From Acidobacteriota bacterium (GTDB taxonomy: Bacteria > Acidobacteriota > Terriglobia > Acidiferrales > UBA7541), in assembly GCA_003224055.1 (NCBI GenBank), contig QHYE01000107.1, positions 1 through 61,647 of the forward strand: 61,647 bases of DNA, read 5' to 3'. The notes under the pieces were generated by a model. That model saw only the letters and a list, made by a program, of their open reading frames with translations, made no database searches and had not been told where the DNA came from. The position numbers were made by a program, and so were the translations under genes. Positions 18,912 through 43,398 of this stretch are shown here, piece by piece; positions within the stretch are counted from its first letter, which is position 1; each line of letters opens with the position of its first letter.

Positions 18912-20036
18912 ATGGGATTCTCCAAGTCCTCGTTTAGCGAAAAGACTCATAAATTGGATGCGTCATCTTTTGCTCCCTTGAGCGCGCGGCGCTTGCTCGT
19001 GCTTGGCGGGATCGGGCTCATCCTCATTGGAATGCTGTTCGGGGACATTTTTGCGGTGTTCGTGTTGCACCAGAATGCGGCGCACGTCGGGGCGAGCCTG
19101 GCGGCTGCCGCACATGCTGCTCTGGCCGGGAATCATGCCGCAGTTCTCGCCAGTTTTCAGAATGTTGGGGCGTTTCTGGAGAATCGCGGAACCAAGGTGG
19201 ACACCCATGTCCACATGATCGATTTTGGATATCTGGCGCTCCTGCTCGCGATCTTGCAGCCATGGATCGCATTTGAGGAAAAAACAAAACGAGGCTTTGC
19301 GTGGCTATTCCTCGCGGGAGCGGCGCTGCTGCCGGTAGGTGTCTTTCTGATTCACTATGTCGGGCTCGCGTATAGCCCGCTGCAAGCGATTGGGTGGGCC
19401 AGCATTTTTGCGGACCTTGGTGGATTGCTGGTAATCCTTGCCACTCTCGGATTTCTCCTGGGTTTCGTGAATCATTTTCGGACCTATGCGCCAGCGCATG
19501 TAAAGGATGGGCTGCTCTCTGACCGTAGCGCGGCGGGCCGCTTGCTGCTTGCCGGTGGCATGGTGCTGGTCCTCGCTGGTTTCCTACATGGCGCGTACTA
19601 CGCAGCCGTCGATCTGTATCGTCATGAAGCGCTCGATTCTTCGATCCTCACGGAAATGGCGATGGCGGCCGCGGCAAACGATGCGGGTACGGTCGACCGG
19701 TCACTGGAAGCTTACGGACAACTGCAGGGCGATAAGGCCGTGAAGATCGCCGCGCACGCGCACAGTATTGAGTTCGGTCTTTTGGCGATGATGCTCGCGT
19801 TTTTTCAGCCTTATGTACGTCTGCGGGAGAGCTGGAAATTGCGATGGGGGTACGTTTTGATTCTCGGCTCGGTGTTGCTTCCCGTATGTGTGCTGATGGA
19901 ATTGCGGTACGGGCTGGTCGCCGGCGGGTTGGCGGACTTTGGAGGCTTTCTGGTGATCCTCGCGCTGCTGGCCATGTGGGTCGGAATTCTTCGCTACACC
20001 GGTCAGCTTGACTCGCAAGCGGGAGATGTACGATGA
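18912..20036 (+). CDS. membrane protein with two copies of a four-helix HxH domain
   Basis: 374 aa, about eight transmembrane helices, made of two homologous halves. Half 1 (about 25-195) begins ARRLLVLGGIGLILIGMLFG and carries VDTHVHMIDFG before a helix ending LAILQPW. Half 2 (about 205-370) begins AGRLLLAGGMVLVLAGFLHG and carries IAAHAHSIEFG before a helix ending LAFFQPY. The His-x-His pair sits at the start of the second helix in both halves, as expected for a heme or metal site in the membrane (inference). I do not recognise a named family; short membrane proteins of the DUF2871 type also have an HTH-like His pair, but that comparison is from memory. The ATGA overlap with the next gene couples them. 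Confidence 0.75.
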   Translation: MGFSKSSFSEKTHKLDASSFAPLSARRLLVLGGIGLILIGMLFGDIFAVFVLHQNAAHVGASLAAAAHAALAGNHAAVLASFQNVGAFLENRGTKVDTHVHMIDFGYLALLLAILQPWIAFEEKTKRGFAWLFLAGAALLPVGVFLIHYVGLAYSPLQAIGWASIFADLGGLLVILATLGFLLGFVNHFRTYAPAHVKDGLLSDRSAAGRLLLAGGMVLVLAGFLHGAYYAAVDLYRHEALDSSILTEMAMAAAANDAGTVDRSLEAYGQLQGDKAVKIAAHAHSIEFGLLAMMLAFFQPYVRLRESWKLRWGYVLILGSVLLPVCVLMELRYGLVAGGLADFGGFLVILALLAMWVGILRYTGQLDSQAGDVR

Positions 20037-20527
20037 GCAGCAGCAGGCGGCTTCTGATTGTGGGCGGCATCGCACTGGCTCTGTGGGGCATGGGTTATGG
20101 CTTGTGGTACGCGGTTTTTGCGGAGCACCAGGCGTTGAATGGAATCGGTGGTTCGCTCGCGACGGCGTTCGATGCCGCGGCGAGTCGAAACCTTGGAGCT
20201 GCCGAGACTGCCTTCCGCAACTACAAGGAAGCGAAATATATCTACGATCGCCAGGTGGATGTGCATGGTCACTGGATTGGATTGGCGATGTTGCTGATCG
20301 TCGTGGGGATTGCGTTCGATCGCGTGCGATTTGCCGAACGACACAAACTGGTGCTGGCATGCACACTTCTGGCGGGAGCCGCAATTTTCCCTTTCGGAGT
20401 TTTGCTTCAGACCTTCGATCACGGCGCGATCCCGCGGGGGATCGCCATTCTCGGATCAGTGCTGGTGATTGCCGCGCTGATCGGGATCACGCTGGGCTTG
20501 GCGGGTCGCAAAGCTCCCTCAGAATAG
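20033..20527 (+). CDS. membrane protein, single copy of the HxH four-helix domain
   Basis: 164 aa, about four transmembrane helices. It is a third copy of the domain in the preceding gene: it starts SSRRLLIVGGIALALWGMGYG and carries VDVHGHWIGLAM at the corresponding place. The ATG overlaps the previous stop (ATGA), with GGAG upstream, so the two proteins are coupled and probably form one complex. The loop between helices 1 and 2 (about 50 residues, charged) has the same length as in the other two copies. No enzyme function can be assigned. Confidence 0.75.
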   Translation: MSSSRRLLIVGGIALALWGMGYGLWYAVFAEHQALNGIGGSLATAFDAAASRNLGAAETAFRNYKEAKYIYDRQVDVHGHWIGLAMLLIVVGIAFDRVRFAERHKLVLACTLLAGAAIFPFGVLLQTFDHGAIPRGIAILGSVLVIAALIGITLGLAGRKAPSE

Positions 20528-20541: not shown

Positions 20542-21141
20542 TCATCCTTTTCTCGTCCTGAATTTTCGAAGACACAGCCGGTAGGACTCCGGCGTATCGA
20601 AATCCGTGAAAATGGCGCGCGTTTGGACTTCTATAACCCGCACTCGGGAAGGAAGACGATAAATCACGTCGCGCGCAGTCTTCGACTTGAAGAACTCTCG
20701 GCGCAGTTTTCCGGATACGATGGCCGGGTGGCCGTAGAGACTTCCATGCCGCGGTATGACAATCTCCTGCGATTCCTCCCGAGTCCGGAACGCGCGCACG
20801 AATTGCTGAATCGTTTTCCGTTTCAGGAGGGGATGGTCCACCGGATAGATCAAGAAAGCGGCATCCACAGGAATTTGTTTTAGCGCGCGCCGCAGCGAGC
20901 TGATCTGGCCCCGCCGCCAGCCACGATTCCATACAACTTGTGCTGCGCGAGGAACGGCGCGACGGACGCGCGGTGCATCGCATCCAAGAACGAGAAGCGG
21001 GCGCTCCAGCCCCGCGCAGTTTTCAATCGCGATGGCCAGCGCTGTTTTTCCGCCGAACATCGCGAGGGGCTTTGGGAATGGAAGATGGTGCGAGGGACCC
21101 GCTACCAGGATAATCGGAAAAATGTTTTCACGTTTTCTCAT
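20542..21141 (-). CDS. MocA-like molybdenum cofactor cytidylyltransferase
   Basis: 199 aa, MobA/MocA nucleotidyltransferase fold. N-terminal FPIILVAGPSHHLPFPKPL corresponds to the LAAGxSxRMGxPK nucleotide-binding loop, and FLIYPVDHPLLKR to the metal-binding DxP motif. HGSLYGHPAIVSGKL is the conserved GxxGHP motif of MocA. The S-x-R-M part of the loop is diverged (SHHLPF). MocA attaches CMP to the molybdopterin of xanthine-oxidase-family enzymes. It is divergent from the molybdenum hydroxylase genes that start at 21346, which supports that role. Confidence 0.82.
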   Translation of the reverse strand: MRKRENIFPIILVAGPSHHLPFPKPLAMFGGKTALAIAIENCAGLERPLLVLGCDAPRVRRAVPRAAQVVWNRGWRRGQISSLRRALKQIPVDAAFLIYPVDHPLLKRKTIQQFVRAFRTREESQEIVIPRHGSLYGHPAIVSGKLRREFFKSKTARDVIYRLPSRVRVIEVQTRAIFTDFDTPESYRLCLRKFRTRKG

Positions 21142-21345
21142 CGCAAGGCTGCGGCAGCATAGATGAGTCAGGTGCCAAACGCCAGAGTTGAAGCCGTCTA
21201 TTTTTCGTCAGCGGGAGGCGAAACAGCCGTTTCGTCTTGCCTCTCCGCTCCAATCGCAATAGAATGCGCCCGCACTACAACCAATGATTTTTGCCGCAGT
21301 CCAACTGCGGACACCCGCCATCCCAAGAGGCAAGCGGAAAACATC

Positions 21346-22248
21346 GTGTACGCGCATCCTTTCTCATATCACCGCGCCGGGTCCCTACTGGAGGCTTCCG
21401 AGCTCCTGCAGCAGTTGGGGGAAGAGGCGCGGCTGATTGCCGGCGGGCAAAGCCTCATCCCGCTGATGAAGATGCGCATGGTGCGTCCCAGCGCGCTGGT
21501 GGATATCAATTTCATACCAGGGCTGAGTGAAATCCGGTGCAGCGACGGTCAACTGCGATTCGGGGCTTTGGCGCGACACGCGGACATCGAGGAATCGGAC
21601 GCCGCTTCGTCCATTCCCATCGTTCAAGATTGCGCGGCGGGCATCGCGGACGTGCAGGTGCGCAATCAAGGGACGATCGGCGGGTCTCTTGCGGAAGCGG
21701 ACCCCAGCGGAGATTGGGGCGCTGTCCTGCTTACCTTGGAGACATCGGTGCGATGCTCCCGGCCGTCAGGAGAGCGAACCATCGCGCTCGATGATTTCTT
21801 CAAGGATGCGTATACGACGGTGCTCGGACATGACGAACTGATCAGCGAAATTATTGTCAAACAGCCCGCGAAGAATAGCGCCGGTGCCTATCTGGCGTTC
21901 AAGCGCAGCGCGCCCGTCTATGCGACGGCTAGCGCGGCGGTGCAGCTCACGCTCGGAGACAGCGACACGTGCAAGGATGTGAGGATTGTACTTGGCTGCG
22001 TTGGATTGACCGCGATTCGCGCTAAGGAAGCGGAGAAAACTTTGCGGGAGAAAAAACTCGAGAAGAAGAGGATCGATAGCGCCGTCGAAGCGGTGCGCGC
22101 GGCCGCTGAACCTCAAGATGACATGCGAGGCTCCGCGGATTATAAGCGCGTCTTGATCGCCGCCCTCGTCAAGCGGGCCATTGGAATCGCGGCGCGGCGG
22201 GCGCGCGGGGAACAAGTTGAGGCGGGACACGAATATGTCGGGCGTTGA
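21346..22248 (+). CDS. molybdenum hydroxylase FAD-binding (M) subunit
   Basis: About 301 aa from GTG 21346, where homology begins (YAHPFSYHRAGSLLEASELL). The frame is open to ATG 21163, but the 61 extra residues look unlike the family. FAD-binding motif 1 is LIAGGQSLIPLMKMR; motif 2 is IRNQGTIGGSLAEADPSGD-like (VRNQGTIGGSL, then DWGAVLL). The C-terminal CODH-FAD domain follows. It passes electrons from the 2Fe-2S subunit to FAD. It overlaps the S-subunit gene by 14 bases. An imperfect hairpin at 21211-21248 lies in the leader and could be regulatory. Confidence 0.88.
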   Translation: MYAHPFSYHRAGSLLEASELLQQLGEEARLIAGGQSLIPLMKMRMVRPSALVDINFIPGLSEIRCSDGQLRFGALARHADIEESDAASSIPIVQDCAAGIADVQVRNQGTIGGSLAEADPSGDWGAVLLTLETSVRCSRPSGERTIALDDFFKDAYTTVLGHDELISEIIVKQPAKNSAGAYLAFKRSAPVYATASAAVQLTLGDSDTCKDVRIVLGCVGLTAIRAKEAEKTLREKKLEKKRIDSAVEAVRAAAEPQDDMRGSADYKRVLIAALVKRAIGIAARRARGEQVEAGHEYVGR

Positions 22249-22720
22249 AAAAATTCTGGTGCACGTTCGCGTCAACGGAGAGCCGCGGGAGGCGCTGGTC
22301 GAACCGCGGACCCTGCTCGTGGAATTGCTGCGCGAGCATTTCAACCTTACCGGAACGCATATCGGCTGCGATACCACGTATTGCGGCGCCTGCACCGTCC
22401 TGCTGAATGGCCGCACGACAAAATCCTGCACGATGTTCGCGCCGATGGCCGAGGGCGGCGAAATCATCACCGTCGAAGGACTTTCCAAGGATGGCGAATT
22501 GCATCCCGTCCAGCAAGCGTTTGCGGAATGTCATGGGCTGCAATGCGGTTTTTGTACGCCCGGGCTGCTGCTTTCCACGGTTCACCTGTTGTCGAAAACG
22601 CGCAAGCCCAGCGAAAAAGAAATTCGCAAGGGGATTGCCGGCAATACCTGCCGGTGCACGGGGTATCAAAATATTTTAAAGGCTGTTCGAGCGGCTGCCG
22701 CCGAAATGGGGAAGAGCTGA
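22235..22720 (+). CDS. molybdenum hydroxylase 2Fe-2S (S) subunit
   Basis: 161 aa from ATG 22235. The N-terminal plant-ferredoxin-type cluster has CDTTYCGACTVLLNG, preceded by the expected LREHFNLTGTHIGC. The C-terminal alpha-helical cluster is built from CGFCTPG and CRCTGYQNI. All eight cysteines are visible. It carries electrons from the Mo site to FAD. It sits between the M subunit (overlap) and a CoxG-like gene (3-base gap). Confidence 0.93.
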   Translation: MSGVEKILVHVRVNGEPREALVEPRTLLVELLREHFNLTGTHIGCDTTYCGACTVLLNGRTTKSCTMFAPMAEGGEIITVEGLSKDGELHPVQQAFAECHGLQCGFCTPGLLLSTVHLLSKTRKPSEKEIRKGIAGNTCRCTGYQNILKAVRAAAAEMGKS

Positions 22721-22723
22721 GCT

Positions 22724-23167
22724 ATGGAGATCAAATTTGGCGGCGACTTCACGGTGCCGAAAAAACCAGAGGCCGTCTACGATTTTCTGGTGGATCCGAA
22801 TCGGTTTTGTCCCTTGCTTCCGGACTATCAGAGCATGGAGATCCGCGACGAGAAGAATTTTCTGGTGAAGTTGAGCGTGGGTATTTCGCATATTCGGGGA
22901 ACGGCGGCGGTGAAGATGTCGCTGGTGGAAACTGAACGGCCGAAGCATGCCGTCTATGAGGGAAATGGGGATGTGCCGGGCGGATCGGCTACGCTGCGAG
23001 CCGCGTTTGAACTGGAGCTTGCTGCGGGAGGAGCGACCAAGGTGATTTGGAGCGGCCAATCCAATGTGATGGGGCGAATTGCGTCGCTGGCCGGAGGATT
23101 GCTTCAGCCGCTGGCGAAGAAAAATGTGCAGAAATTGATTGATGGACTGCAGAAAGCGTTGACGTAG
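22724..23167 (+). CDS. CoxG-like SRPBCC-domain protein
   Basis: 147 aa with the CoxG pattern: FTVPKKPEAVYDFLVDPNRF near the N-terminus, then GTAAVKMSLVE and a C-terminal GRIASLAGGLLQPLAKK helix. CoxG proteins are SRPBCC-fold and in carboxydotrophs help anchor CO dehydrogenase to the membrane, by a surface helix. Here it is placed between the S and L subunits, in the same operon, so a similar assembly or anchoring role is likely (inference). Confidence 0.85.
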   Translation: MEIKFGGDFTVPKKPEAVYDFLVDPNRFCPLLPDYQSMEIRDEKNFLVKLSVGISHIRGTAAVKMSLVETERPKHAVYEGNGDVPGGSATLRAAFELELAAGGATKVIWSGQSNVMGRIASLAGGLLQPLAKKNVQKLIDGLQKALT

Positions 23168-23182
23168 GCGCGAGACAAGGCG

Positions 23183-25720
23183 ATGGCGAAAACAACTCGA
23201 GTGAAAAACAAGAGATTGAAGGCTGCGGCCGGCTCCGGCAAGAGCCGCGCAACGGGCGCTCCCAAGTGGGTGGGGCAGCCGATTCGCCGCGTAGAGGAAG
23301 ACCGCCTGGTGCGAGGGAAGGGAATTTTTGTTGACGACCAGAAGTTGACGGGGATGCTGCACATCCGGTTTGTGCGGTCGTCCTACGGACACGCGAAAAT
23401 CACGCGAGTGGATGTCACGAAGGCTGCCGCGTTGCCGGGAGTGGTGTGCACGTTGACCGGCGCGGAAGTGAAAGGGCTGGTGAAGCCTTTCATCGAGATC
23501 GGGCCGGACGTCGGTCAGAAAATCGCGGACTACCCGATGGCCGTGGACAAGGTCGTGTACCAGGGCGAGCCGGTGGCCGCGGTCGTGGCGGAGAATCGGA
23601 TGGCGGCTGAGGATGCGGCGGAACTCGTTGAAGTGGAATATGAGCCTCTGCCTCCCGTGATGACCGCGGAAGATGCGCTCAAGGAGGGGAGTCTCGTTCA
23701 CCCGGGCATGGGCACGAACCGCAACTGGCATGGCGTGTTCGAATATGGAGACATGGAGAAAGCTTTCAAGCAGGCTGATCATGTTGTGCACATTGACCGG
23801 TTGCACTTCCATCGCTTTTCGAGCACGCCGCTCGAATGCAACGCGATGATTGCGGTTTGGGATTCGCGCTCCGAACGGATCGAGTATTGGTCCAACAATT
23901 CGTTTCCGTCTTTCGCGGCACAGTTCCTCTCGCCGGCGCTGGGCGTTCGAATCGATCAGATTCTGATGAAGAGCTTCGACATTGGTGGCGGCTTCGGGAT
24001 CAAGATTACGAATTATCCGTACATGGCTTTGTGTGCGCTGGCTTCGCGGAAAGCGGGCGATCGGCCGGTGAAATGGACCGAGACGCGCACCGAACACATG
24101 CAGGCGAGTGCTCACGGGAATGAGCGCACTTTCCTGGATACACGCGTGGCGCTGGATAAGAATGGCGTAATCACGGCGATTGATTCGCGACACGTCGATG
24201 ATTGCGGCGCTTACCCGCGTTACGAGCCGCTTGGCTGTGTGATTTGGGCACAGGTGCTTCCGGGTTCGTACCGCGTCAGAAACATTCGCATTGACATGAA
24301 TCAGGTGGTCACGAATAAGTGCCCCGTGGGACCGAATCGCGGCTATTCGCGGATGCAGCAGCTCTGGTTCCTGGAGCGAGTGCTGGATATTTGCGGGCAC
24401 TCGCTCGGGATTCCCACCGATGAAATGCGCCTGCGCAACTACATCCGGAAAAATGAGATGCCGTACGAGACTCCGAACGGCTGCGTGTACGATTCGGGCG
24501 ATTATGCGGGGATGCTCGCAATGGGCAAGACACTTGTCGGCTGGGACGATTGGAAAAGGAAACAGGCGGCCGCGCGCGAGGAAGGACGCTGGATCGGGTT
24601 GGGAATCGGCTCGACGCTGGATTCCGGCACGAACAATTTTGGCCAGGCGCGCATCATTAATGCGGGAGCCCCGTTTTCTGGACAATCCAAGGCGGCGATC
24701 GCCAAGCTGGACATCTACGGCGAAGTCGTCATCAGCATGGGCTCCGTGCCGCAGGGACAGGGCCACGAAACGACGGCCGCGCAGGTGGTGGCCGATGTGC
24801 TGGGCGTGTCTCCCGGCCACGTCAAAGTAAAACCGGGGTTCGATACGGAGCAAAACGCTTACACCGGTCACACCGGAACGTATGCCAGCCAGTTCGCAGT
24901 CACGGGTCTCTCGGCCATTCACGGCGCGGCGACCAAGCTTCGAAAGGAAATGAGCCGGCTGGCGGCCTGGGCGCTGAAGGCCAAAGAAAAGGATCTGGAA
25001 TTTGGCGTCGGCGCGCAAGGACCGGAGGTCCGGGACAAGCGATCGAAGAAATCCATCAATTACTGGGCGCTCGCGAACATTGTGAACGTGAACAACGCGG
25101 GCATGCCAGAGAAATTGTGGGATGTGACGCTTAATTGCCGCCACGTATATCACGCGCCGTTTCAATTGCCGGACGTGAAGAAAAAATTTGGTAATCTCAC
25201 GCTCACGTATGCGGCGCAGATTCATGTCGCGGTCGTCGAGGTGGATCGAGATACGTTTCAGCCGAAAATCCTGGCATACGCTTGTGTGGACGATTGCGGC
25301 CGCGCCATAAATCCCAGGATCGTGGAGGGGCAAGTGCACGGCTGCACCGCGCACGGCATCGGCGCCGCGTTGATGGAGGATTGCGCTTACGATGGCGATG
25401 GCAATCTGCTGGCCTCGACTTTCAGCGACTACACTCCGATCACCGCGATGAACATGCCCGATCTGCTGTACGGCCACATGGAATCGCCATCGCCGTTCAC
25501 TTTCAATGGCGCGAAGGGCATGGGCGAAGGCGGTGCAGCGCCGGTCCATACGATTTGCGCGGCGCTGCAGGATGCTCTCTACTCGAAGGGCGTGATCATC
25601 AATGATTCGCACAACACCGGCGATTCGATCTTTCTAGCAGTGCAACGCGCAGGCACCGGCGGGTTTGCTTCCTCGGTTCGCATCGAACACCGGCGCGCTG
25701 CCGGCAGGAGCGCACGCTGA
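23183..25720 (+). CDS. molybdenum hydroxylase catalytic (L) subunit, atypical active-site loop
   Basis: 845 aa, xanthine dehydrogenase/CoxL family. An unusual basic N-terminal tail of about 28 residues is followed by GQPIRRVEEDRLVRGKGIF. Further motifs are FDIGGGFGIKI, the Mo-cofactor motif PQGQGHETTAAQVVADVLG (about 525-545) and the catalytic Glu in GMGEGGAAP (about residue 781). The active-site loop reads CPVGPNRGYSR (about 380-390). Carbon monoxide dehydrogenases have AYRCSFR (form I) or AYRGAGR (form II), so this is not a canonical CODH. It probably hydroxylates a ring or aldehyde carbon of an unknown substrate. The next gene starts 67 bases on. Confidence 0.9.
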   Translation: MAKTTRVKNKRLKAAAGSGKSRATGAPKWVGQPIRRVEEDRLVRGKGIFVDDQKLTGMLHIRFVRSSYGHAKITRVDVTKAAALPGVVCTLTGAEVKGLVKPFIEIGPDVGQKIADYPMAVDKVVYQGEPVAAVVAENRMAAEDAAELVEVEYEPLPPVMTAEDALKEGSLVHPGMGTNRNWHGVFEYGDMEKAFKQADHVVHIDRLHFHRFSSTPLECNAMIAVWDSRSERIEYWSNNSFPSFAAQFLSPALGVRIDQILMKSFDIGGGFGIKITNYPYMALCALASRKAGDRPVKWTETRTEHMQASAHGNERTFLDTRVALDKNGVITAIDSRHVDDCGAYPRYEPLGCVIWAQVLPGSYRVRNIRIDMNQVVTNKCPVGPNRGYSRMQQLWFLERVLDICGHSLGIPTDEMRLRNYIRKNEMPYETPNGCVYDSGDYAGMLAMGKTLVGWDDWKRKQAAAREEGRWIGLGIGSTLDSGTNNFGQARIINAGAPFSGQSKAAIAKLDIYGEVVISMGSVPQGQGHETTAAQVVADVLGVSPGHVKVKPGFDTEQNAYTGHTGTYASQFAVTGLSAIHGAATKLRKEMSRLAAWALKAKEKDLEFGVGAQGPEVRDKRSKKSINYWALANIVNVNNAGMPEKLWDVTLNCRHVYHAPFQLPDVKKKFGNLTLTYAAQIHVAVVEVDRDTFQPKILAYACVDDCGRAINPRIVEGQVHGCTAHGIGAALMEDCAYDGDGNLLASTFSDYTPITAMNMPDLLYGHMESPSPFTFNGAKGMGEGGAAPVHTICAALQDALYSKGVIINDSHNTGDSIFLAVQRAGTGGFASSVRIEHRRAAGRSAR

Positions 25721-25787
25721 CAACCCTGCAACTTGAATCACGGCGAATTTCAGCGAATCGCTACGTGCACTCGGCCGAATAAAATCG

Positions 25788-26735
25788 ATGAAGCGCGTTT
25801 GCATTATCGGTTGCGGATCCATCGGAAGCCTCTACGCTGCTCACCTGGCAAGAGTCACCGAGACCTGGGCATATGTCCGGCGGGCGGAGCACGCACGCGC
25901 GCTTAATGAGCACGGCATTTCTGTTACGGGGTCGCACGAATTTCATGCGAAGCTTCGCGCCACCAACGATCCCGCGGAGATGCCACAGTTTGATCTGGGA
26001 ATCGTCGCGAGCAAAGCCACGCAAACCGCGGAAGCGCTCGGCCCAGTCGCGCATCTCTTCAAGAATGGCGCAATCCTTTCGTCGCAAAATGGCTTGGGCA
26101 GCGAAGAAATCATTGCCGCACTGACGGATGCCTTCGTGATTCGCGGGACGACGTTCATGAGCGGAACGCGCCACACGGACACGCACGTGCAGTACGAGCT
26201 CGACACAGCAACATGGATGGGGCCGTTTGAGCCGACCAAAACGCCTTTCGCGCTGGTAAAAGAAGCGGCGGAGCTCATCACCTCTTCCGGCCTGAAGGCC
26301 GTTGCGCTGGAAGACGCGCGCCCCGCGCAGTGGTCGAAGCTGATCTTCAATTCCTCGGTCAATTCTGTTGCCGCGCTCACCGAATTGCCGCACAGTTTTC
26401 ATTTTGCCGAGGAAAAAGATTTTGGTGATCTGGGTCACCTCCTGCATGCGCTGATGGAAGAGGGAAAGAGTGTGGCCGCCGGCCTGGGCGTAAAACTTTA
26501 CGAAGATCCGTGGGAAATGAACAAGGTTGGCGCGCAGACGGATCATCCCCCTTCCATGCTGTACGACATCCGGCACAAACTCAGAACGGAAATTGATTTT
26601 CTGGGCGGAGCGATTGCTCGCGAAGCCGCCCGGGCGGGAATTCCGGCGCCACTGCACGCGGCGCTCTACCGTTTGATCAAGGGCAAGGAAGAATCGTGGA
26701 GGTACCAGGGTAAGGGCCACCCGGCCGCGAAATAA
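25788..26735 (+). CDS. 2-dehydropantoate 2-reductase-like protein, copy 1
   Basis: 315 aa, PanE/ApbA fold. N-terminal NADP-binding motif CIIGCGSIGSLYAAHLA; catalytic-domain motif ARPAQWSKLIFNSSVNSVAAL, where the Lys and Asn match the KPR active-site residues. The usual PGTTT segment reads VIRGTTFMSGT. A second copy in this cluster (30362-31291) shares VIRGTTF, GPFEPTxTP and AQWxKLIFN with it. Two KPR paralogues among catabolic enzymes suggest reduction of a 2-oxo acid intermediate rather than pantothenate synthesis (inference). Confidence 0.85.
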   Translation: MKRVCIIGCGSIGSLYAAHLARVTETWAYVRRAEHARALNEHGISVTGSHEFHAKLRATNDPAEMPQFDLGIVASKATQTAEALGPVAHLFKNGAILSSQNGLGSEEIIAALTDAFVIRGTTFMSGTRHTDTHVQYELDTATWMGPFEPTKTPFALVKEAAELITSSGLKAVALEDARPAQWSKLIFNSSVNSVAALTELPHSFHFAEEKDFGDLGHLLHALMEEGKSVAAGLGVKLYEDPWEMNKVGAQTDHPPSMLYDIRHKLRTEIDFLGGAIAREAARAGIPAPLHAALYRLIKGKEESWRYQGKGHPAAK

Positions 26736-26746
26736 TCCGAGGCGCT

Positions 26747-27922
26747 ATGGCATATCCGCTCGATCACGAAAAATGGAAACGCGTCCGGCAAATGCTGGGG
26801 CGGCAAGATCTTGATGCGGTCGTCGTGCGCGCCCCCGACAACGTCCTCTATCTCACCAATTACTGGACCATGAAGGGCTATGACCTCGCGATCTTTCCCC
26901 GCGACGGAGATCCCACGCTGCTGGTCATCGAACCCCAGTTTCGCGAAGCGCAGCTCACGGCCTGGAACAAAGATGTTCGCTTTTTCCCTTTTTACCACCC
27001 CAGGGACCCGCGCCCGCCGATGATTCGCGCTGTGGAAATGGCGGTGGATGTTTTACGGGAACGAAAGCTGTCGCGCCGCGTCGGGATCGAGCTTTCTCAA
27101 ACTTCACAGATCTGCGACCGCATGGTTGGCGAACCGACAGTCTATTGGCAGGGTTTTTACGATGCTTTTCGCGCAGGTTGCGCTGAAGTCGTGGACACCG
27201 CGCCACTGCTTTCCGAATTGCGCATGATCAAAACGCCGCAGGAGATCGAGCGCATGCGCCTGGCAAACGAGCTGGCGGCCATCGGAATGGAGTATGCGCG
27301 CGACAACATCAAGCCCGGCATGAAAGAGAGCGAAGTCGCCGCGATGATTGAAGGGCACATTCACGCCGTAGGCGTTGGATACAAAGGCAAAGTGGAGATG
27401 GCACGCGCGTTCACCCTGGTGTGGTCAGGGAAGGGCATTGCCACTTTTACTGCGACCTCGCACCGCCCGGTGATCGAAAATGAACCGACGCTCATCGAAA
27501 TTTGGGTTTGCGCCGATGGGTACTGGACGGACCTGACCAAGAATCTTTGCCCCGGGCGCTTGACGGCGGAATACAATCGGCTGCTCGATCAATTACTGAA
27601 GATTTTCGACGATGCGGTGGGTTGCGTGCGGGACGGCGCTCCGCTTGGCGAGATTGACCGGATCATTCGTGCGGGGATCGATGCCGCGGGTTACCCGGGT
27701 CAGCCCTCGCACCCTGTTGGGCACGGGGTGGGTGCGCGCGCGCATGAACCGCCTTATTCGCATCAGGCAACCCTGGGAGTGATGCGCTCGGGGATGGTCC
27801 TGGCCATTGAGCCGGGTGTTTACTGGGAGGGTGGCGGCGGATTGCGGCTCGAAGACAATTTCCTGATCACCGCCGGCGGTTGCGAAAAGCTATGTTCGTA
27901 TCCGGATGATTTTCGCCGGTAG
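26747..27922 (+). CDS. M24-family (Xaa-Pro peptidase/creatinase fold) hydrolase
   Basis: 391 aa. N-terminal creatinase-type domain (about 1-165: VVVRAPDNVLYLTNYW), then the pita-bread domain. The metal ligands can be placed: LIEIWVCADGYWTDLT has Glu where the first Asp is usual and keeps the second Asp; GHGVGARAHEPP holds the His; LAIEPGVY and LRLEDNFLI give the two Glu. Four of five ligands are standard and one is a D-to-E change, so it may still bind metal. Substrates in this fold include prolyl peptides, creatine and other C-N or C-S compounds. It starts 11 bases after the KPR-like gene. Confidence 0.88.
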   Translation: MAYPLDHEKWKRVRQMLGRQDLDAVVVRAPDNVLYLTNYWTMKGYDLAIFPRDGDPTLLVIEPQFREAQLTAWNKDVRFFPFYHPRDPRPPMIRAVEMAVDVLRERKLSRRVGIELSQTSQICDRMVGEPTVYWQGFYDAFRAGCAEVVDTAPLLSELRMIKTPQEIERMRLANELAAIGMEYARDNIKPGMKESEVAAMIEGHIHAVGVGYKGKVEMARAFTLVWSGKGIATFTATSHRPVIENEPTLIEIWVCADGYWTDLTKNLCPGRLTAEYNRLLDQLLKIFDDAVGCVRDGAPLGEIDRIIRAGIDAAGYPGQPSHPVGHGVGARAHEPPYSHQATLGVMRSGMVLAIEPGVYWEGGGGLRLEDNFLITAGGCEKLCSYPDDFRR

Positions 27923-27965
27923 CCGCCCGGAGAGACGGAACCGTGACTCCGAGGAGTCTCATTTC

Positions 27966-29207
27966 ATGAAGAAAGACCTGGCCAAGACGATCCTCTCGCA
28001 AATTCGCGAGGACGAAATCGTCGCGATGTGCTGCGACGTCGTGAACATCCCGAGCCCCACGGGCGAAGAACTGGAGATGGGCCGGTACATGCGGCGGGCG
28101 CTGGAGGACACTGGGCTCAGCGTCACATGGCAGGAAGTCGAGGAGGGCCGGGCCAATGTTGTTGGCCTGTGGGAAGGCACCGGCAATGGAAAAAGTTTGA
28201 TGTTCAACGGCCACATGGACACGTCGAACACCGGACGCGAAACTTTTCTGACTGGACTCGGCTACAAAGCGAAAGCCGCGATCCGTAAGGGCATGATCTA
28301 CGGCCTGGGAATCTATAACATGAAAGGCGCTCTGGTCTGCTACACCCTGGCCGTGAAGGCCCTGATGCGCGCGGGCGTGAAGTTGGAGGGCGACGTCATC
28401 ATTGCCGCTGTCGTGGGCGAAATTGAGAAAACACAATGGAGCGATGAATTCGTCGGCAAGGAATTCCGTGGTTACGGCGTTGGCACGCATCACCTCGTGA
28501 ATCACGGCGTTTTACCCGATATGTGCATTCTCGGCGAACCCACGGACCTGCAGCTAGTGCTGGGCCATTACGGAACCGTTTGGGTCCGCATTTCAACGCG
28601 CGGCCACTACGTGCACACGGCATTTACACGCGGGAAGCAGGAGCACAGCTCGGTCTTTCGAATGAAAGAGATTCTAGACCCGATTTATGCCTGGATCATA
28701 GCGTGGGAAAAGAAAGCGACGTACGACAGACAGCCCGGCGTTGTGAATGTGGGTTGCGTACGCGGCGGCCACCCGTGGCGCGTCAGCCGGACGCCCGACC
28801 GCGCCGATGTCTTCCTGGATGTTCGCGTTCCGCCAACGATGCCGCTCAAGGAAGTGCGGACTTCCATCAAACAGCTTGTCCTGGAGCTTCGCAAGAAACA
28901 TCCGGACTACGGCGTGGAGTACGAAACCTATGTGTCCGTCCCGGGCGCGGAAATCTCCCAGGATCATCCGTTGGTGAAGACCGTCGAAGCGTGCCACCAG
29001 CGGGTCCTCGGCGCCGTGCCGAAACACGCCACCGTCTTGTGGGATTCCGATGCTTCCGTGATGACACGTTATGGAATCGAAACTCTGAATTACGGCCCTT
29101 CCAGCGGGCCGCGCGACGCCGAAGGCGAAAAAGTAGCCATCGAAACGCTCGTCAATACCACGCGGGTTTACGCGTTGGCTGCCGCAGAGATTTGCGGCGC
29201 GCACTGA
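27966..29207 (+). CDS. M20-family (ArgE/DapE-like) amidohydrolase with altered metal motif
   Basis: 413 aa from ATG 27966 (GAGGAG upstream). First metal motif LMFNGHMDTSNTG is intact. The second motif reads YGLGIYNMKGALVCY: the usual bridging Asp of GxGxxDMKGG is Asn (about residue 118). The catalytic pair appears as VVGEIEKTQW and a later ligand in CILGEPTDL; the final His is not obvious. M20 enzymes hydrolyse N-acyl or carbamoyl bonds using two zinc ions. The Asn change may weaken one site. The gene lies between two M24-fold genes in the same operon. Confidence 0.85.
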   Translation: MKKDLAKTILSQIREDEIVAMCCDVVNIPSPTGEELEMGRYMRRALEDTGLSVTWQEVEEGRANVVGLWEGTGNGKSLMFNGHMDTSNTGRETFLTGLGYKAKAAIRKGMIYGLGIYNMKGALVCYTLAVKALMRAGVKLEGDVIIAAVVGEIEKTQWSDEFVGKEFRGYGVGTHHLVNHGVLPDMCILGEPTDLQLVLGHYGTVWVRISTRGHYVHTAFTRGKQEHSSVFRMKEILDPIYAWIIAWEKKATYDRQPGVVNVGCVRGGHPWRVSRTPDRADVFLDVRVPPTMPLKEVRTSIKQLVLELRKKHPDYGVEYETYVSVPGAEISQDHPLVKTVEACHQRVLGAVPKHATVLWDSDASVMTRYGIETLNYGPSSGPRDAEGEKVAIETLVNTTRVYALAAAEICGAH

Positions 29208-29228
29208 GAAGAGAACCGGATCACACCA

Positions 29229-30365
29229 ATGACCAGTCAAAAGGAAATCGATCGCCGCTACAGCAACATCCGCGCTGCCATGGAAGCGGAAAAGGTCGAC
29301 GCCCTCATCGTCTGCGGCAATCAGTACGCTGGATTTGAAGGCGCGGTGCGCTACACCTCCGGCTTCGAAATTGTTCATCGCTACGTTTACGTCCTCATTC
29401 CTCTTGCGGGAGATCCCACGCTGGTTTTTCCGCGCGAGGCTCGCTGGATCGGAGATAAGAAAGCATCCTGGGTCCGCGAAAAAGTTTGGGCGGAGATTCC
29501 CGGGAAGTGGCTGCGTGAAGAAAGTGAGAAACATCATTGGAAGCGCGTGGCGGTGTATGGACTGGATTTCGTGATGGCCGTTCGTGATTACCGCGAGCTG
29601 CAGCAGGGTGCGTTCGAACTCGTCCCGTTCGATTTTCACTTTGACATGGCGCGGGCCGTAAAAAGTGAAGAGGAACTCGAAGGCTTTCGCGACAGTATGG
29701 ATATCATCCTTGATGGCTTCCACGCACTCCTCAAGGCCTACGAGCCGGGAAAATCCGAAGCCGAAATCATGGCTCCAGCGGTCGAACGCTTTTTCGCGCG
29801 TGGAGCAGGCCCGCGCATGATGAACATCGTTCTGAGTGGCAGCAACGGCGAAGCGGAGGCCTTTTTCAAAGTGCCATCGCAGCGCAAAGTCGCCGCGGAT
29901 GATTTGTTGCTCTATTCCCTCGAGGTGACCGGCGCCGACGGCTACTGGATCGAATTTACGCGCGCACTGATTCGGGGGAAAGTCAGCCCTCGCACCCGCG
30001 CCATGAGCGATGTCTATCCACACGCTATGGAATGCGCGCGCTTGAAAATGCGCGAAGGCGTGCTTGCCAGTGAAGTTCACAAGGCAGCAGCCGATGTTTT
30101 TGCGAAGGCTGGATTTGCGCTGGGCCACCTTACGGGTCATTCCATCGGCATGACCATGCTGGAGCATCCCTCCATCGGCGCGAACACGCAGATCGAGCTG
30201 AAAGAAAACATGGTCGTTAGCTTTCATCCGCAAGTCGTCGACCAAGAGGGCCAGGTCTGCCTCTACACCCAGGACACCTACCGCGTCGGCAAAAAGGAAG
30301 GCGAGTGCTTCGCGAACGTGCCGTGGCGGTTTTATTCCGGAGCGGAAGAGTTGAAGACGGCATGA
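29229..30365 (+). CDS. M24-fold protein lacking the metal ligands (creatinase-like)
   Basis: 378 aa, same two-domain fold as the 26747-27922 product. The ligand positions are changed: the DGY segment reads LYSLEVTGADGYWIEFTR (Asp to Leu and Asp to Glu), the IEPG motif is SFHPQ (Glu to His), and the final Glu is Gln (LYTQDTY). Only the GHSIG His remains. Creatinase is a known metal-free member of this fold, so a metal-independent hydrolysis is possible; a non-catalytic role is the alternative. The stop overlaps the next start by 4 bases. Confidence 0.82.
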   Translation: MTSQKEIDRRYSNIRAAMEAEKVDALIVCGNQYAGFEGAVRYTSGFEIVHRYVYVLIPLAGDPTLVFPREARWIGDKKASWVREKVWAEIPGKWLREESEKHHWKRVAVYGLDFVMAVRDYRELQQGAFELVPFDFHFDMARAVKSEEELEGFRDSMDIILDGFHALLKAYEPGKSEAEIMAPAVERFFARGAGPRMMNIVLSGSNGEAEAFFKVPSQRKVAADDLLLYSLEVTGADGYWIEFTRALIRGKVSPRTRAMSDVYPHAMECARLKMREGVLASEVHKAAADVFAKAGFALGHLTGHSIGMTMLEHPSIGANTQIELKENMVVSFHPQVVDQEGQVCLYTQDTYRVGKKEGECFANVPWRFYSGAEELKTA

Positions 30366-31291
30366 AGGTCAAGGTTTGCATCGTCGGTTGCGGAGCAATC
30401 GGCAGCATCTTCGGCGCACATCTCGCGCGTCTCGAAGATGTTGAGTTGCATGCTTACGATGTTTCGAAAGAACAAACGCGCGCGATTCGCGAGGGCGGGC
30501 TGCGCATCAGCGGCGCGGCGGATTTCACAGCCCAACTTCACGCGACTTCTGACCCCAGGGAGATTCCCAGTTGTGATTTCGGAATCGTGGCCACAAAGAG
30601 CACGCACACGCGGGCGGCCATCGAGCAGACCGCGCACATTTTTGGCGCGGGGAGCGCGGTTTGCTCCGTGCAAAACGGCGTCGGCAATGAAGAGATTCTC
30701 GCGCAGCATGTTCCTTGCGTGATTCGCGGTACCACTTTTCCCGCGGGTCACGTGATTGAGCGGGGCCACGTAGGCTTCGACATCAATGGCGATACGTGGA
30801 TAGGCCCGTTCGAGCCCACGCATACACCGTACGCTCGCGTTGAGCAACTCGCCGAATTGCTTAATCGCGCGGGCTTGCGCGTAATTCCCTTGCGGGACGC
30901 TCGAGGTGCGCAGTGGACCAAGCTAATTTTCAATGCTTCGACGAATCCGGTTGGCGCGCTGACCCTGCTGCACCATGGCGCAGCGACGCGGTTCGCGCCT
31001 ACTGGCGCGCTGTTCAATGCCTTGATCGCGGAAGGTGAAGCGGTAGCCAAAGCGCTGGGGATCGAGCTGCATGGTGATCCGCGCGCCCTGGTGCAAAAAG
31101 GCGCGAACGCGCCCGGCAAACACAAGGCCAGCATGTTGCAGGACATTCTTGCGCGGCGCCAGACCGAAGTGGACTTCATGAACGGCGCAATCGCGGACTT
31201 GGGCGAAAAAACCGGCGTGCCTACTCCGCTCAATCGCGCCTTGTGGCAACTTGTGAAGGGACTCGAACATTCCTGGAGCGATCCGAGCTGA
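30362..31291 (+). CDS. 2-dehydropantoate 2-reductase-like protein, copy 2
   Basis: 309 aa from ATG 30362 (ATGA overlap with the M24 stop). NADP motif CIVGCGAIGSIFGAHLA; active-site region GAQWTKLIFNASTNPVGALT with the conserved Lys and Asn. It shares cluster-specific motifs with copy 1 (VIRGTTFPAG, WIGPFEPTHTP) and is clearly its paralogue. Retention of both copies in one operon suggests two reduction steps or two stereochemistries (inference). Confidence 0.85.
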   Translation: MKVKVCIVGCGAIGSIFGAHLARLEDVELHAYDVSKEQTRAIREGGLRISGAADFTAQLHATSDPREIPSCDFGIVATKSTHTRAAIEQTAHIFGAGSAVCSVQNGVGNEEILAQHVPCVIRGTTFPAGHVIERGHVGFDINGDTWIGPFEPTHTPYARVEQLAELLNRAGLRVIPLRDARGAQWTKLIFNASTNPVGALTLLHHGAATRFAPTGALFNALIAEGEAVAKALGIELHGDPRALVQKGANAPGKHKASMLQDILARRQTEVDFMNGAIADLGEKTGVPTPLNRALWQLVKGLEHSWSDPS

Positions 31292-31333
31292 TCGGCAATC
31301 GCAACGAGCGACTTTCAACGGAGAACTGACACG

Positions 31334-32410
31334 ATGAGCATGCCTTTCAAAATCGGTGTGTTGCAGCTCAGCATGGAGCCGCTCGACGACACGGTGCGCA
31401 TGGCTCAGGCCTGCGACGCCGCCGGGTTTGACACGTTTTGGCTGGCGGAGGCCTATCCCTGGTGGCGCAAACACTCGATGGAAGCGCGCTCCTCAACGGC
31501 AGTCACCGCCATCGTCGCTCGCGAAACCAAAAAAATCACCATCGGCTGGGGCATCATTTCTCCGTACACGCGTCACCCCGTGCAAATCGCCATGGAGGCT
31601 CGCGTCCTTCAGGAAGCTGCGGGTAAAGACCGTTTTCTCCTCGGGCTGGGCGCTTCGAAGATTTTCATGAAAGAGATCGGCGAGGGCGAAAAGGGAAAAG
31701 AGGTGGGTCCTGCAACCGTGATGCGGGAAAGCATCGAGATCATCGAGGCGATGCTCGCCGGTGGTGAAGTGAAATATGAGGGCAAAGCGTTTCAGGCGTA
31801 TGCGCCCGCACTCAAAGCCGATACTCACGTCCCGCGCTGGCGCGTGCCGACCTACGTTGGAGCTACTGGCCCTGTTTTGCAGCGCCTCGCCGGATCGCAT
31901 TCCGATGGTTTGTTGACGGCCAGCATCACCACGCCGAAGTTTGTGGAGTACTCGCGGAAGATGATGGAAGAGGGCGCCCACAAGGCTGGAAAAGATTCTT
32001 CGAAGCTCGATTTAGGTTCAGTGATTGTCGGCAGCGTTGGCGAAGATCCCAAATCTGCCCATGAAGGCGCCAGAGAAATGGCCGCCATGTACCTCGCCAA
32101 CAAAGTGCAGAACATCCGCGGTTCAGCGGACACGCTTCTGGAATGCGCCGGTCTTTCGTTCGAAGAGATTCGCCCGATTGCTGACGCGATGGAACAGGGA
32201 GGCCGGAAAGCCGCGGCCCGCGCGGTCACGGATGCGGTGCTCGAGAAAGTGTGCGCTATTGCGGGCACACCGGCACAGTGCATCGCGCGATTGGAGGAGT
32301 ATCGCGCCGCCGGGTGCACGCACATCATGTTGGAGCTTTGGGGCGACGACCGGCTCGAACAAGCGCGATTGTTCGGAGAAAAAGTCTTGCCGCACTTCAG
32401 CAAGAAGTAG
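31334..32410 (+). CDS. LLM-class (luciferase-like) flavin-dependent oxidoreductase
   Basis: 358 aa, TIM-barrel bacterial-luciferase superfamily. Recognisable features are AQACDAAGFDTFWLAEAY, ITIGWGIISPYTRHPVQIA, GKDRFLLGLGASKIF and the C-terminal GTPAQCIARLEEYRAAGCTH. Members use FMN or coenzyme F420; which one cannot be told from the sequence. It is the last plus-strand gene of the cluster, 42 bases after the second KPR-like gene. A C-C or C-N oxidative step is plausible. Confidence 0.88.
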   Translation: MSMPFKIGVLQLSMEPLDDTVRMAQACDAAGFDTFWLAEAYPWWRKHSMEARSSTAVTAIVARETKKITIGWGIISPYTRHPVQIAMEARVLQEAAGKDRFLLGLGASKIFMKEIGEGEKGKEVGPATVMRESIEIIEAMLAGGEVKYEGKAFQAYAPALKADTHVPRWRVPTYVGATGPVLQRLAGSHSDGLLTASITTPKFVEYSRKMMEEGAHKAGKDSSKLDLGSVIVGSVGEDPKSAHEGAREMAAMYLANKVQNIRGSADTLLECAGLSFEEIRPIADAMEQGGRKAAARAVTDAVLEKVCAIAGTPAQCIARLEEYRAAGCTHIMLELWGDDRLEQARLFGEKVLPHFSKK

Positions 32411-32463
32411 ATCCACTGCCGTCGCTCCGTTTGCGGCAACCGCGACTGATCTTGAACTTCCGC

Positions 32464-33474
32464 TTATGCCGTCACCGATTTGCCGCCTTGCATCTCTTTG
32501 TAAGATACGACTGGATTCCGGAGCACTCCGATTTTCTCGATTTCGCATTCCACAATGTCGCCGGGTTTCAGATAGAGCGACTTCGGATCCGCGCTGAAAG
32601 CCGCAACCCCGGAAACCGTGCCCGTGGAAAGCACATCGCCCGCGGAGTAACCCATGGGCGAATAATGGGCGATAATTTCCGGAATCGTCACGGACATTTT
32701 GCTTGTGTGCGATTCCTGCCGGATCTTTCCATTCACGCGAAGCTGCATCGCCAGTTTGTGCGGGTCCGGAATTTCATCCGCCGTCACGATATAGGGCCCA
32801 AGCGGGCAAAACGTATCGATGCCCTTGCAAAAGCTGAACACGCCGGACTTCATCTCTCGGCGCTGGATGTCGCGCGCCGTCACATCATTGAAAATCACAT
32901 ACCCGCCGATGTACTCGCGCGCCTGCTCCGCGGAGAAGTGCTTTCCCCCTTTCTTGAGAACCACGGCAAGTTCAAGCTCGTAATCGAGTTCTTCCGTCAA
33001 ATGCTCGGGATAAATAATCGGCGCGTCCGGACCGATGATGGCATCCACGTTTTGAAAGAACACAATCCATGGAAGTATGGGATGAGAAAATCCCGCCTTT
33101 TGCGCATCCTCGTGATGTTCGCGGAAATTTCCCGCCGTGTGGAAAAACTTTCTGGGAACGATAGGCGCCTTGATGCTTACAGTTTCCCGTCGGGGAAAAA
33201 TGGGCTCGCCGGAAACTCCCTTCGTTTCCGGCCCGCCCTTTGTCGCGTATTCGAGGGCAGTCTGCGCCGCGTCCAGACCACGGTCTCCATTCTCGAACAA
33301 CGCACGCATGTCGGAAGGCACGCGCGCATCTGCAAGCGCATAGAACGCCCCTTCCCGCTCGACGTTTCTCAAATAGCTTGCGTAGGCAGCATTCAGGTCA
33401 ACAATCCATCCCTCTGCGGTCAGCGCCCCGATGCGATCTCCGCGCGACGCCCCTTGGAAAGTAACCAGCTTCAT
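32464..33474 (-). CDS. fumarylacetoacetate hydrolase (FAH) family protein
   Basis: 336 aa. The FAH core is clear: FFHTAGNFREHHEDAQKAGF, metal-binding TEELDYELELAVVLKKG, GYVIFNDVTARDIQRREM and GDVLSTGTVSGVA. Family members cleave C-C bonds of acylpyruvates or isomerise/decarboxylate related diketo acids, with a divalent metal. It converges on the plus-strand cluster, 53 bases after the flavin oxidoreductase, so it may be transcribed separately yet serve the same pathway (inference). Confidence 0.88.
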   Translation of the reverse strand: MKLVTFQGASRGDRIGALTAEGWIVDLNAAYASYLRNVEREGAFYALADARVPSDMRALFENGDRGLDAAQTALEYATKGGPETKGVSGEPIFPRRETVSIKAPIVPRKFFHTAGNFREHHEDAQKAGFSHPILPWIVFFQNVDAIIGPDAPIIYPEHLTEELDYELELAVVLKKGGKHFSAEQAREYIGGYVIFNDVTARDIQRREMKSGVFSFCKGIDTFCPLGPYIVTADEIPDPHKLAMQLRVNGKIRQESHTSKMSVTIPEIIAHYSPMGYSAGDVLSTGTVSGVAAFSADPKSLYLKPGDIVECEIEKIGVLRNPVVSYKEMQGGKSVTA

Positions 33475-34073: not shown

Positions 34074-35087
34074 TCAGCGCGACGCGAGCGTCGATCCGCC
34101 GGTGCCAAACTTGAACAGGATCTTGCCGGCGCGATGCGATTTCAAAGATTGCTTGAACGCTTCCTTGAACTGGTCGAGCGGGTACACATGCTCCACTGCG
34201 GCGGAGAGCGATCCATCAGCTACGAGGTCTCCCAGCTTCTGGTAAATCTCTTCGATTTCTGTGCCCGGCGCGTTGCGTATCCAATTGATGAGCCAGAATC
34301 CGTGGAGGCTAAGACCACGGTAGACGAACTCTTTGGGCGGCATGGCTGGGAACTGCCCACTTTGAAGGCCGTAGACGACAATCGAGCCGCCAGGTTTAAG
34401 CGATTTGGCCAACTCGCCCACGGGAGTTCCACCCACCGTATCGAGGACGAGGCTAAGTTTCTTCCCGTCGAGAGCCTCCTCAATATCCATGTGTAAATTG
34501 TCGCCTTGGAGGACTACGCGGTCACCTCCCCACTGCCGCACTTGTTCGGCAGCTTCTTCCCGCCGGACGACATTCAGCGTCTTGACTCCTGCAAGCTTCG
34601 CGAGCGCAATGATATACTGCCCCATGGCTGCGTTTGCTGCCGTTTGACCGATCCAGTCGTCGGGCATCAGGGAAACGTATCGGTTCAAGAGGAGATAGGC
34701 CGTAACCGGGTTAATCCCTATCATCGAAAGTTGCAGGGGATCCGCTTCGTCGCTCATCGGCACGAGGTTGCGCACTGGGGCGACAACCTGGTCTGCCCAG
34801 GTGCCCTGCTCGTAGGTAGGAAGAATCAGGACTCGCTTTCCCCGCAGAGCAACATCAACCTTCGATCCGATCTTTGCGACTCGGCCAACACCCTCCGCGC
34901 CGACGGAGGATGGGAAGGCCGGCCGGACGCCGTACATGCCGCGGACAAACAGAAAGTCTGATGGATTGAGCGGGGCCGCTTCCATCGAGATGAGAACATC
35001 TTCCGGGCCAAGAGCCGGATCCGGCACTGTCCTGAGTTCGATGACATCGGAAGGTTCGCCGTGAGCTACGAGTTGCAACTGCCGCAT
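34074..35087 (-). CDS. MDR-family zinc-independent NADPH reductase (quinone/enoyl reductase-like)
   Basis: 337 aa from ATG 35085-35087 with AAGGAG upstream (an 18-codon extension has no site). GroES-like N-terminal domain: PLNPSDFLFVRGMYGVRP, FPSSVGAEGVGRVAKIG. Rossmann domain: QTAANAAMGQYIIALAKLAG, as in 2-enoyl thioester reductases (MECR) rather than the GxGxxG of zinc alcohol dehydrogenases. No zinc ligands are seen. It ends HRAGKILFKFG, typical of the family. Likely reduces an alpha,beta-unsaturated carbonyl. Confidence 0.87.
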   Translation of the reverse strand: MRQLQLVAHGEPSDVIELRTVPDPALGPEDVLISMEAAPLNPSDFLFVRGMYGVRPAFPSSVGAEGVGRVAKIGSKVDVALRGKRVLILPTYEQGTWADQVVAPVRNLVPMSDEADPLQLSMIGINPVTAYLLLNRYVSLMPDDWIGQTAANAAMGQYIIALAKLAGVKTLNVVRREEAAEQVRQWGGDRVVLQGDNLHMDIEEALDGKKLSLVLDTVGGTPVGELAKSLKPGGSIVVYGLQSGQFPAMPPKEFVYRGLSLHGFWLINWIRNAPGTEIEEIYQKLGDLVADGSLSAAVEHVYPLDQFKEAFKQSLKSHRAGKILFKFGTGGSTLASR

Positions 35088-43394: not shown

Positions 43395-43398
43395 TGCT

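Follow-up and report, generated by a model that had tools for sequence, protein, structure and literature searches.

A conserved Acidobacteriota gene block around a molybdenum hydroxylase and its possible role in F420-aided breakdown of a nitrogen-containing compound

Do the closely packed genes around a molybdenum hydroxylase in an Acidobacteriota bacterium form a single system, how far does that system reach, and what might it do? The window analysed here is a 61,647-nucleotide stretch of contig QHYE01000107.1 (assembly GCA_003224055.1), which is contig C108 of a genome of 4.53 Mb and 136 contigs. An original prediction, made from the DNA letters, had grouped the genes between 20542 and 33474 into a new catabolic pathway; every gene that it named was found in place, with Pfam families in agreement. 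At the centre lies a ten-gene core on the forward strand, M-S-CoxG-L-KPR1-M24a-M20-M24b-KPR2-LLM (21163-32410), followed by a convergent FAH gene, and the listed open reading frames (ORFs) are spaced by -68 to +67 bases, with some starts uncertain. This gene block is one conserved, co-inherited Acidobacteriota unit. The further reading that it is a single system for the uptake and F420-aided breakdown of one nitrogen-containing, probably cyclic or aromatic compound stands, in our judgement, about an even chance of being correct. Among the matches listed from the open-licence PMC literature there was no described pathway with this gene set, in line with the novelty originally proposed.

A scan of 84,980 species with two short M24b peptide patterns, which distant relatives in other phyla could escape, yielded 64 loci, every one titled as a metagenome-assembled genome of the Acidobacteriota lineage. 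The full ten-gene core is present in order in 34 of the 64 loci and unbroken up to a contig end in another 24, leaving six exceptions, so that the outcome named beforehand as refuting the pathway, genes not conserved together, was not what the genome search returned. At least 12 of the loci overlap with the genus and phylum genomes (G numbers) used below, for example L088/G033, L092/G032, L123/G267 and L142/G206, and L125 and L150 are one assembly; the loci share common ancestry, and the Fisher and Poisson values given below therefore overstate independence. An alpha/beta hydrolase is inserted in two of the 64. Among 61 relatives, M20 was found at E<=1e-30 in 15, of which 14 are among the 36 same-genus genomes and the sole match outside the genus is G059, at 30%. 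Gene order is the same in all 13 same-genus regions fetched, as far as the contigs go. M24b occurs in six of 396 phylum genomes, the window's own included; of the other five, three have the ten-gene core complete, G230 is truncated at a contig end, and G206 has M24b-KPR2-LLM alone, plus HMGL and FAH. Searched with M24b, plasmids gave no match at 1e-12, and their matches to M20 and KPR2 were all below 60% identity. Two side observations concern these genomes: the HMGL-FAH genes of the partial operon of G206 have a styrene-monooxygenase-like flavoprotein and an SDR in their vicinity (L045, 10147-12213), and the operon, with CofG adjoining, is also found in a genome of another family that is 100% complete in 8 contigs and possibly comes from a cultured strain (G322:C8).

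The unit is longer than the original prediction had it: the proposed region does hold the genes, and the part that was missed reaches upstream to 15717 and comprises a receptor and two membrane proteins that belong to the system. The first of these genes (15717-18863, forward strand) encodes a TonB-receptor-like outer-membrane beta-barrel receptor of 1048 amino acids (Pfam CarboxypepD_reg and OMP_b-brl_4) and ends 48 nucleotides before mem1. A survey of 23 of the 36 genus genomes (G000-G022, the 21 best candidates per genome being scored) showed a strong receptor homologue (E<=1e-150) in all nine that bear the operon and in none of the 14 without it. The receptor sits at the same place in G012, G019 and G024, and a receptor homologue at 60% identity was detected in G041, a member of another family in which M20 was not found. 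The mem1 gene (18912-20036, forward strand) encodes an 8-transmembrane (TM) protein without a Pfam family and is present in 13 of 14 operon-bearing genomes versus one of the 22 other genus genomes. The single case among the 22 is a fragment at a contig edge and the mem1 of G032 is a 54-residue remnant, such remnants or fragments being those of G032 and G025; G026 lacks mem1, and its contig stops soon after M.

Mem1 consists of two homologous 4-TM units, and mem2 (20033-20527, forward strand) is a 4-TM protein homologous to each of them (34% between the N-terminal and C-terminal halves of mem1, 38% between the N-terminal half and mem2, and 29% between the C-terminal half and mem2), so that together they form three homologous 4-TM units with HxH motifs. 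H53, H99, H101, H148, H282 and H284 of mem1 are invariant in 22 aligned sequences, as are H32, H78 and H80 of mem2 in 32 of 32. A predicted model of mem1 (predicted local distance difference test score, pLDDT, of 81) matched heme-copper oxidases in a first-pass Foldseek search with an E value of 0.026 at best and a query TM of at most 0.30 among the matches listed; in a second-look alignment of the Foldseek candidates, all 50 listed were heme-copper oxidase superfamily subunit I (Z 19.6-14.3), the best matching over 274 residues at Z 19.6 and 4.2 Å. An hhalign comparison of mem1 or mem1+mem2 with Acidobacteriota COX1 sequences gave no match, and a BFVD search with the mem1 model gave nothing useful. 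Because of the Foldseek values and the unmatched profiles, the modelled likeness is a lead and not a family membership. It is distinctly improbable, though conceivable, that mem1 and mem2 together make up a relative of heme-copper oxidase subunit I with twelve helices in three repeats, encoded by two genes and with the internal three-fold repeat still visible in sequence, which serves as the dedicated electron acceptor (quinol/O2 or NO type) of an F420-linked molybdenum hydroxylase pathway. If this were true, Acidobacteriota would have in this operon their first known F420-dependent catabolic route.

The link to F420 comes from the last core gene and from the neighbours of the operon in related loci. 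LLM (31334-32410, forward strand; Pfam Bac_luciferase) is a putative luciferase-like hydride transferase, and its closest relatives among solved structures and among NCBIfam models alike are Mer, although it falls below the curated cut-off for Mer proper. LLM is probably F420-dependent, because it is Mer-like and because the system adjoins F420 genes in several loci; the luciferase-like family originally assigned thus stands, and the flavoprotein label gives way to the more probable F420 dependence. In L133 and L141, CofD-CofC-CofE-Fno directly follow M24b, as confirmed by Pfam; CofG adjoins the operon in L114 and G322, CofG and Fno do so in L092 (the G032 contig), and CofE is next to FAH in L145. 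CofG (TIGR03550, above cut-off) is present in 17 of 19 genomes with a whole or partial operon, and in seven of the 19 it lies on the operon contig about 5 kb or less from mem1 or M (G008, G012, G019, G024, G030, G032 and G322), with the order CofG-Fno-receptor-mem1 in three of the regions read. With related loci taken once, grouped by eye and not from a tree, the F420 linkage amounts to about four groups. In L096, L101, L103 and L123 mem1 is preceded by a Flavin_Reduct gene, as MocA/M is in L137. According to the available text of a 2021 review (PMC8498797), Acidobacteria are among the phyla with F420 biosynthesis genes in their genomes, and at that date what F420 does in bacteria other than Actinobacteria had not been addressed by experiment.

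The enzyme at the head of the core is made up of an M subunit (21163-22248, forward strand; Pfam FAD_binding_5/CO_deh_flav_C), in which the flavin adenine dinucleotide (FAD) domain begins at residue 66 and the real start is perhaps further 3', an S subunit (22235-22720, forward strand; Pfam Fer2/Fer2_2; the ORF opens at 22181 and ATG 22235 is the likelier start), and an L subunit (23183-25720, forward strand; Pfam Ald_Xan_dh_C/MoCoBD_1/2), with a CoxG-like gene (22724-23167, forward strand; PF06240, COXG) between S and L. With FAD, two [2Fe-2S] and Mo domains and the GEGG motif, the Glu of which we take to be an active-site residue of L, it belongs to the molybdenum hydroxylase (xanthine oxidase) superfamily. 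The loop GPNRGYSR and the motif GMGEGG are invariant in 43 of 43 L sequences. Aerobic CO dehydrogenase was rejected as its identity (TIGR02416, 408.8 vs 991.15; NF040766, 502.4 vs 950; loop GPNRGYSR throughout), as were archaeal glyceraldehyde dehydrogenase (265.7 vs 350, 234.5 vs 290 and 499 vs 790 for the three subunits) and xanthine dehydrogenase (curated cut-off missed). The form I CoxL loop is, as we take it, CSFR, unlike the loop of L. The L gene of this operon, which is CoxL-type in architecture, should not be taken as CO oxidation. Judging from its family, CoxG would recruit the molybdenum hydroxylase to the membrane.

The remaining core genes encode two reductases and three hydrolase-fold proteins. 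KPR1 (25788-26735) and KPR2 (30362-31291, ORF from 30305), both on the forward strand with Pfam ApbA/ApbA_C, score 203.7 and 223.9 against TIGR00745 (cut-off 141.35) and so fall within the ketopantoate reductase family of NAD(P) reductases; K184, E268 and N101 of KPR1 are conserved in 52 of 52 sequences (its glycine motif in 51 of 52, with one gap) and K206, E288 and N124 of KPR2 in 49 of 49, these Lys, Glu and Asn presumably being the PanE catalytic residues. M24a (26747-27922) and M24b (29229-30365), on the forward strand with Pfam Creatinase_N/Peptidase_M24, differ at the positions that we take to be the five M24 metal ligands, mapped by eye from alignments. In M24a, best matched by proline dipeptidases in sequence, all five (E251-D262-H326-E355-E369, in 53 of 53) are acidic or His, with the first Asp replaced by Glu. 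In M24b, E232, E242, H304, H333 and Q348 are each found in 60 of 60, the fourth and fifth positions being His and Gln, and the predicted metal site is thus altered yet invariant. The M24b model (pLDDT 89.7) is best matched by ectoine hydrolase (Z 35.0, 2.6 Å, 358 residues), followed by Xaa-Pro dipeptidase (Z 32.8) and creatinase (Z 31.2). DoeA itself (TIGR02993 / NF038259) was rejected, with scores of 41.4 vs 613 and 74.2 vs 575 for M24a and of 32.4 and 40.9 for M24b. The nearest solved structure to M20 (27966-29207, forward strand; Pfam Peptidase_M20; ORF from 27906, ATG 27966 likelier) is 5-nitroanthranilate aminohydrolase (E 5.3e-50), with N138, GEIE/GEID and R295 in common. The positions checked in M20 are conserved in 54 of 54 sequences, except R286 (48 of 54); the Asn, presumably at the position of the usual bridging Asp, is also present in three other M20 proteins compared and is thus a subfamily mark.

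The outer genes are less constant. The FAH-superfamily hydrolase (32464-33474; Pfam FAA_hydrolase) has a counterpart in 30 of the 64 loci; where the sequence continues for 3 kb or more beyond LLM, it is present in 28 of 40. Clustering places an HMGL enzyme in 31 loci and tblastn (above 45% identity) in 33, 28 of them together with FAH. The MocA-like MobA-fold nucleotidyltransferase (20542-21141; PF12804, NTP_transf_3), an optional part, scores 84.1 bits against the curated MocA model TIGR03310 (cut-off 186.45). Both had been counted with the set and both are present, but they lie on the strand opposite to the core, and MocA is rare at this place in related loci. The ADH (34074-35141) and SDR (35297-36124) genes downstream were rejected as parts of the operon, a weak homologue of each being found in one of 64 loci.

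How these parts could work together can be sketched. The receptor would import the nitrogen-containing compound, and the MSL molybdenum hydroxylase, held at the membrane by CoxG, would hydroxylate its ring and hand electrons to the membrane, where mem1/mem2 may take them up. LLM would transfer hydride from F420H2 onto the ring thus activated, dearomatising it, after which M24a, of prolidase/ectoine-hydrolase type, and M24b may open the reduced ring or an amide, and M20, of 5-nitroanthranilate-aminohydrolase type, may take off an amino or acyl-amide group. KPR1 and KPR2 could reduce, or form, 2-oxo acids, and FAH, together with HMGL in about half of the related loci, would cleave the carbon chain. 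The breakdown of an N-heterocycle or amide, as first suggested, is supported in part, since it fits the protein families and the co-occurring receptor.

Several observations weigh against reading the block as one F420-aided degradative system. The six exceptional loci are L120 and L132, without some inner core genes, L133 and L141, without KPR2-LLM at that place, L136, which is rearranged, and L142, with just M24b-KPR2-LLM. MocA stands at this place in four of the 64 loci (the M gene being reached in 40), and HMGL is absent from this place in the window, its best homologue in the same genome having 36% identity. F420 genes occur in just five of the 64 fetched flanks, most loci having none; over these 405,276 flank bases, 0.18-0.45 would be expected if a 4.5 Mb genome holds 2-5 F420 gene places, giving a Poisson P(>=4) of 4e-5 to 1e-3 with kinship ignored. 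CofE does not separate operon-bearing from operon-free genomes (12 of 14 vs 13 of 22, p = 0.14, Fisher), and neither the window's own genome (G000) nor G022 has CofE, or CofG above cut-off; in G000 the Fno contig ends where G009 has CofD/CofG/CofE, so an assembly gap is likely. No substrate, regulator or inner-membrane transporter was identified for the system.

Other explanations of the same genes have to be weighed against this one. The enzymes could instead make a secreted small molecule, such as a metal-binding or signalling compound, with the receptor retrieving the molecule or its complex: an outer-membrane receptor beside biosynthesis genes is typical of siderophores, HMGL relatives are synthases, KPR enzymes are biosynthetic in other settings, and an efflux-type system (MacB/FtsX-HlyD, 9672-13520) is encoded a few kb upstream. 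F420-dependent luciferase-like reductases also occur in antibiotic biosynthesis, according to the available text of PMC8498797. However, the conserved unit contains no peptide or polyketide synthase and no exporter, none of these is among the recurrent neighbours (clusters in at least four loci, judged by eye), and a molybdenum hydroxylase with three hydrolase-fold enzymes is a degradative make-up, so that a biosynthetic cluster appears fairly unlikely. Pyrrolobenzodiazepine-type F420 biosynthesis was considered separately and dropped. Quite unlikely, in turn, is ordinary peptide or amide salvage by an Xaa-Pro-type M24 and an ArgE/DapE-type M20, with an aldehyde-oxidising molybdenum hydroxylase co-located and F420 playing no part, since the entire set keeps one order across the phylum, F420 genes lie within the same gene run, the positions of M20 that resemble 5-nitroanthranilate aminohydrolase and the altered site of M24b are fully conserved, and no listed NCBIfam model reaches its cut-off for M24a, M24b or M20 (for M20, 25 of 34 models). 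What speaks for salvage is the proximity of M24a to proline dipeptidases, the generic NCBIfam names, and a plasmid of Rhizobium sp. CC-CFT758 (L034, 10034-12374) on which an M20 gene (28% identity) is directly followed by an M24 gene near pyrroloquinoline quinone and ABC-transporter genes.

A TDO-like heme dioxygenase raises the possibility of an indole or tryptophan-type pathway, in which this enzyme, encoded near FAH-HMGL, would open the indole ring and the operon would degrade the product. The gene, which can be aligned with the solved TDO 2nw7, is found in eight of the 64 loci, all eight with FAH or HMGL, and in 22 of 36 genus genomes, with a bias towards those that carry the operon (12 of 14 vs 10 of 22 operon-free; p = 0.03, Fisher, kinship ignored). 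It adjoins a flavin reductase in eight of eight regions fetched (L080-L087), and Fno and/or CofD/CofE lie beside it in seven of them (not L085), with or without the operon. It is not in the window, however, and is missing from the operon-bearing G007 and G010, and 17 of the 18 operon-bearing genomes examined have kynureninase-like genes (below cut-off) whose enzymes could consume the TDO product, which leaves this pathway a slim chance. The uptake and F420-aided breakdown of a nitrogen-containing compound is the reading that we carry forward; the locus provides a defined, conserved gene set with which to test what F420 does in a phylum that is common in soil, and the receptor offers a way to trace the substrate.

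Elsewhere in the window, the genes at 366-13520 likely encode an efflux system, with two MacB/FtsX permeases and an HlyD protein, and its regulators, a sensor kinase and a sigma-54 response regulator. At the other end (42951-61236), ORFs that match no Pfam family, one of them of 1856 amino acids (50368-55938), are flanked by tRNA-Arg(CCG), a resolvase (43938-44552) and a phage integrase (59989-61236), and this may be an integrated element.

Compared with known systems, L is homologous over almost its full length to its nearest relatives, quinoline 2-oxidoreductase (1t3q) and CoxL of aerobic CO dehydrogenase (8uem), and the MSL + CoxG layout is shared as well, but the form II CoxL loop is AYRGAGR in the available text of PMC12582533, as against GPNRGYSR here. 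LLM is nearest to the F420-dependent methylene-H4MPT reductase Mer (PDB 1ezw, 8qq8), but scores 156.7 bits against TIGR03555 (cut-off 348.7), and a different substrate is expected. Like 5-nitroanthranilate aminohydrolase (5NAA-A, PDB 5k8m), M20 combines the M20 fold with Asn in place of the usual Asp, GEI(D/E) and Arg, a likeness in sequence, but it has the gene neighbours of this operon. Ectoine hydrolase opens a reduced cyclic amidine, and EutD/DoeA (PDB 6yo9, 6twk) is the best structural match of the M24b model, although the metal ligands of M24b are changed and both M24 proteins fall far below the DoeA cut-offs. The mem1 model resembles heme-copper oxidase subunit I (cbb3 CcoN 8smr_E, NorB 4xyd_A) in fold and in its HxH motifs, and mem1/mem2 differ from it in the 8+4 TM split and the absent sequence-profile match.

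The closest parallel in overall logic is reductive urate breakdown, in which, according to the available text of PMC12507026, an Xdh-type enzyme is followed by a dearomatising reductase and then by an M20 enzyme; the urate reductase of Chloroflexota is there suggested to be an F420 luciferase-family protein, and the membership of a molybdenum enzyme in the Chloroflexota clusters is left open. A molybdenum enzyme and a luciferase-family protein are both present in the operon here as family matches. Membership in the pathway itself was rejected: no amidohydrolase was found among the operon genes by Pfam, TIGR03314 (SsnA), searched in G059 and 15 genomes with the operon, is above cut-off in G179 alone, about 165 kb from its operon, and M20 scores below the YgeY models (NF009555, 104.7 vs 321; TIGR03526, 85.3 vs 321.5 bits). 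SsnA-like and M20 genes on contig C31 of the window's own genome seem unrelated, with no tblastn match at 1e-5 to the operon or F420 queries. A divergent sister cluster in G059 (L033, C273) contains an alpha/beta hydrolase, a CoxG-like protein called by eye from sequence, S, L, a hydantoinase/dihydroorotase-like enzyme, an F420-type LLM, M, M20 and a DASS transporter, and fits the logic of the urate analogy. The reductive uric-acid pathway, whose members in the available text of PMC12507026 are XdhD, YgfK/UacX or F420 luciferase-family protein, SsnA, HyuA, YgeW/UacY, YgeY and YgeX, combines a molybdenum enzyme, a reductase and an M20 enzyme; these have a molybdenum enzyme, a putative reductase of the luciferase family and an M20 protein as counterparts in the present unit, which, in place of SsnA, HyuA, a carbamoyltransferase and an ammonia lyase, carries a pair of M24 proteins and a pair of KPR enzymes.

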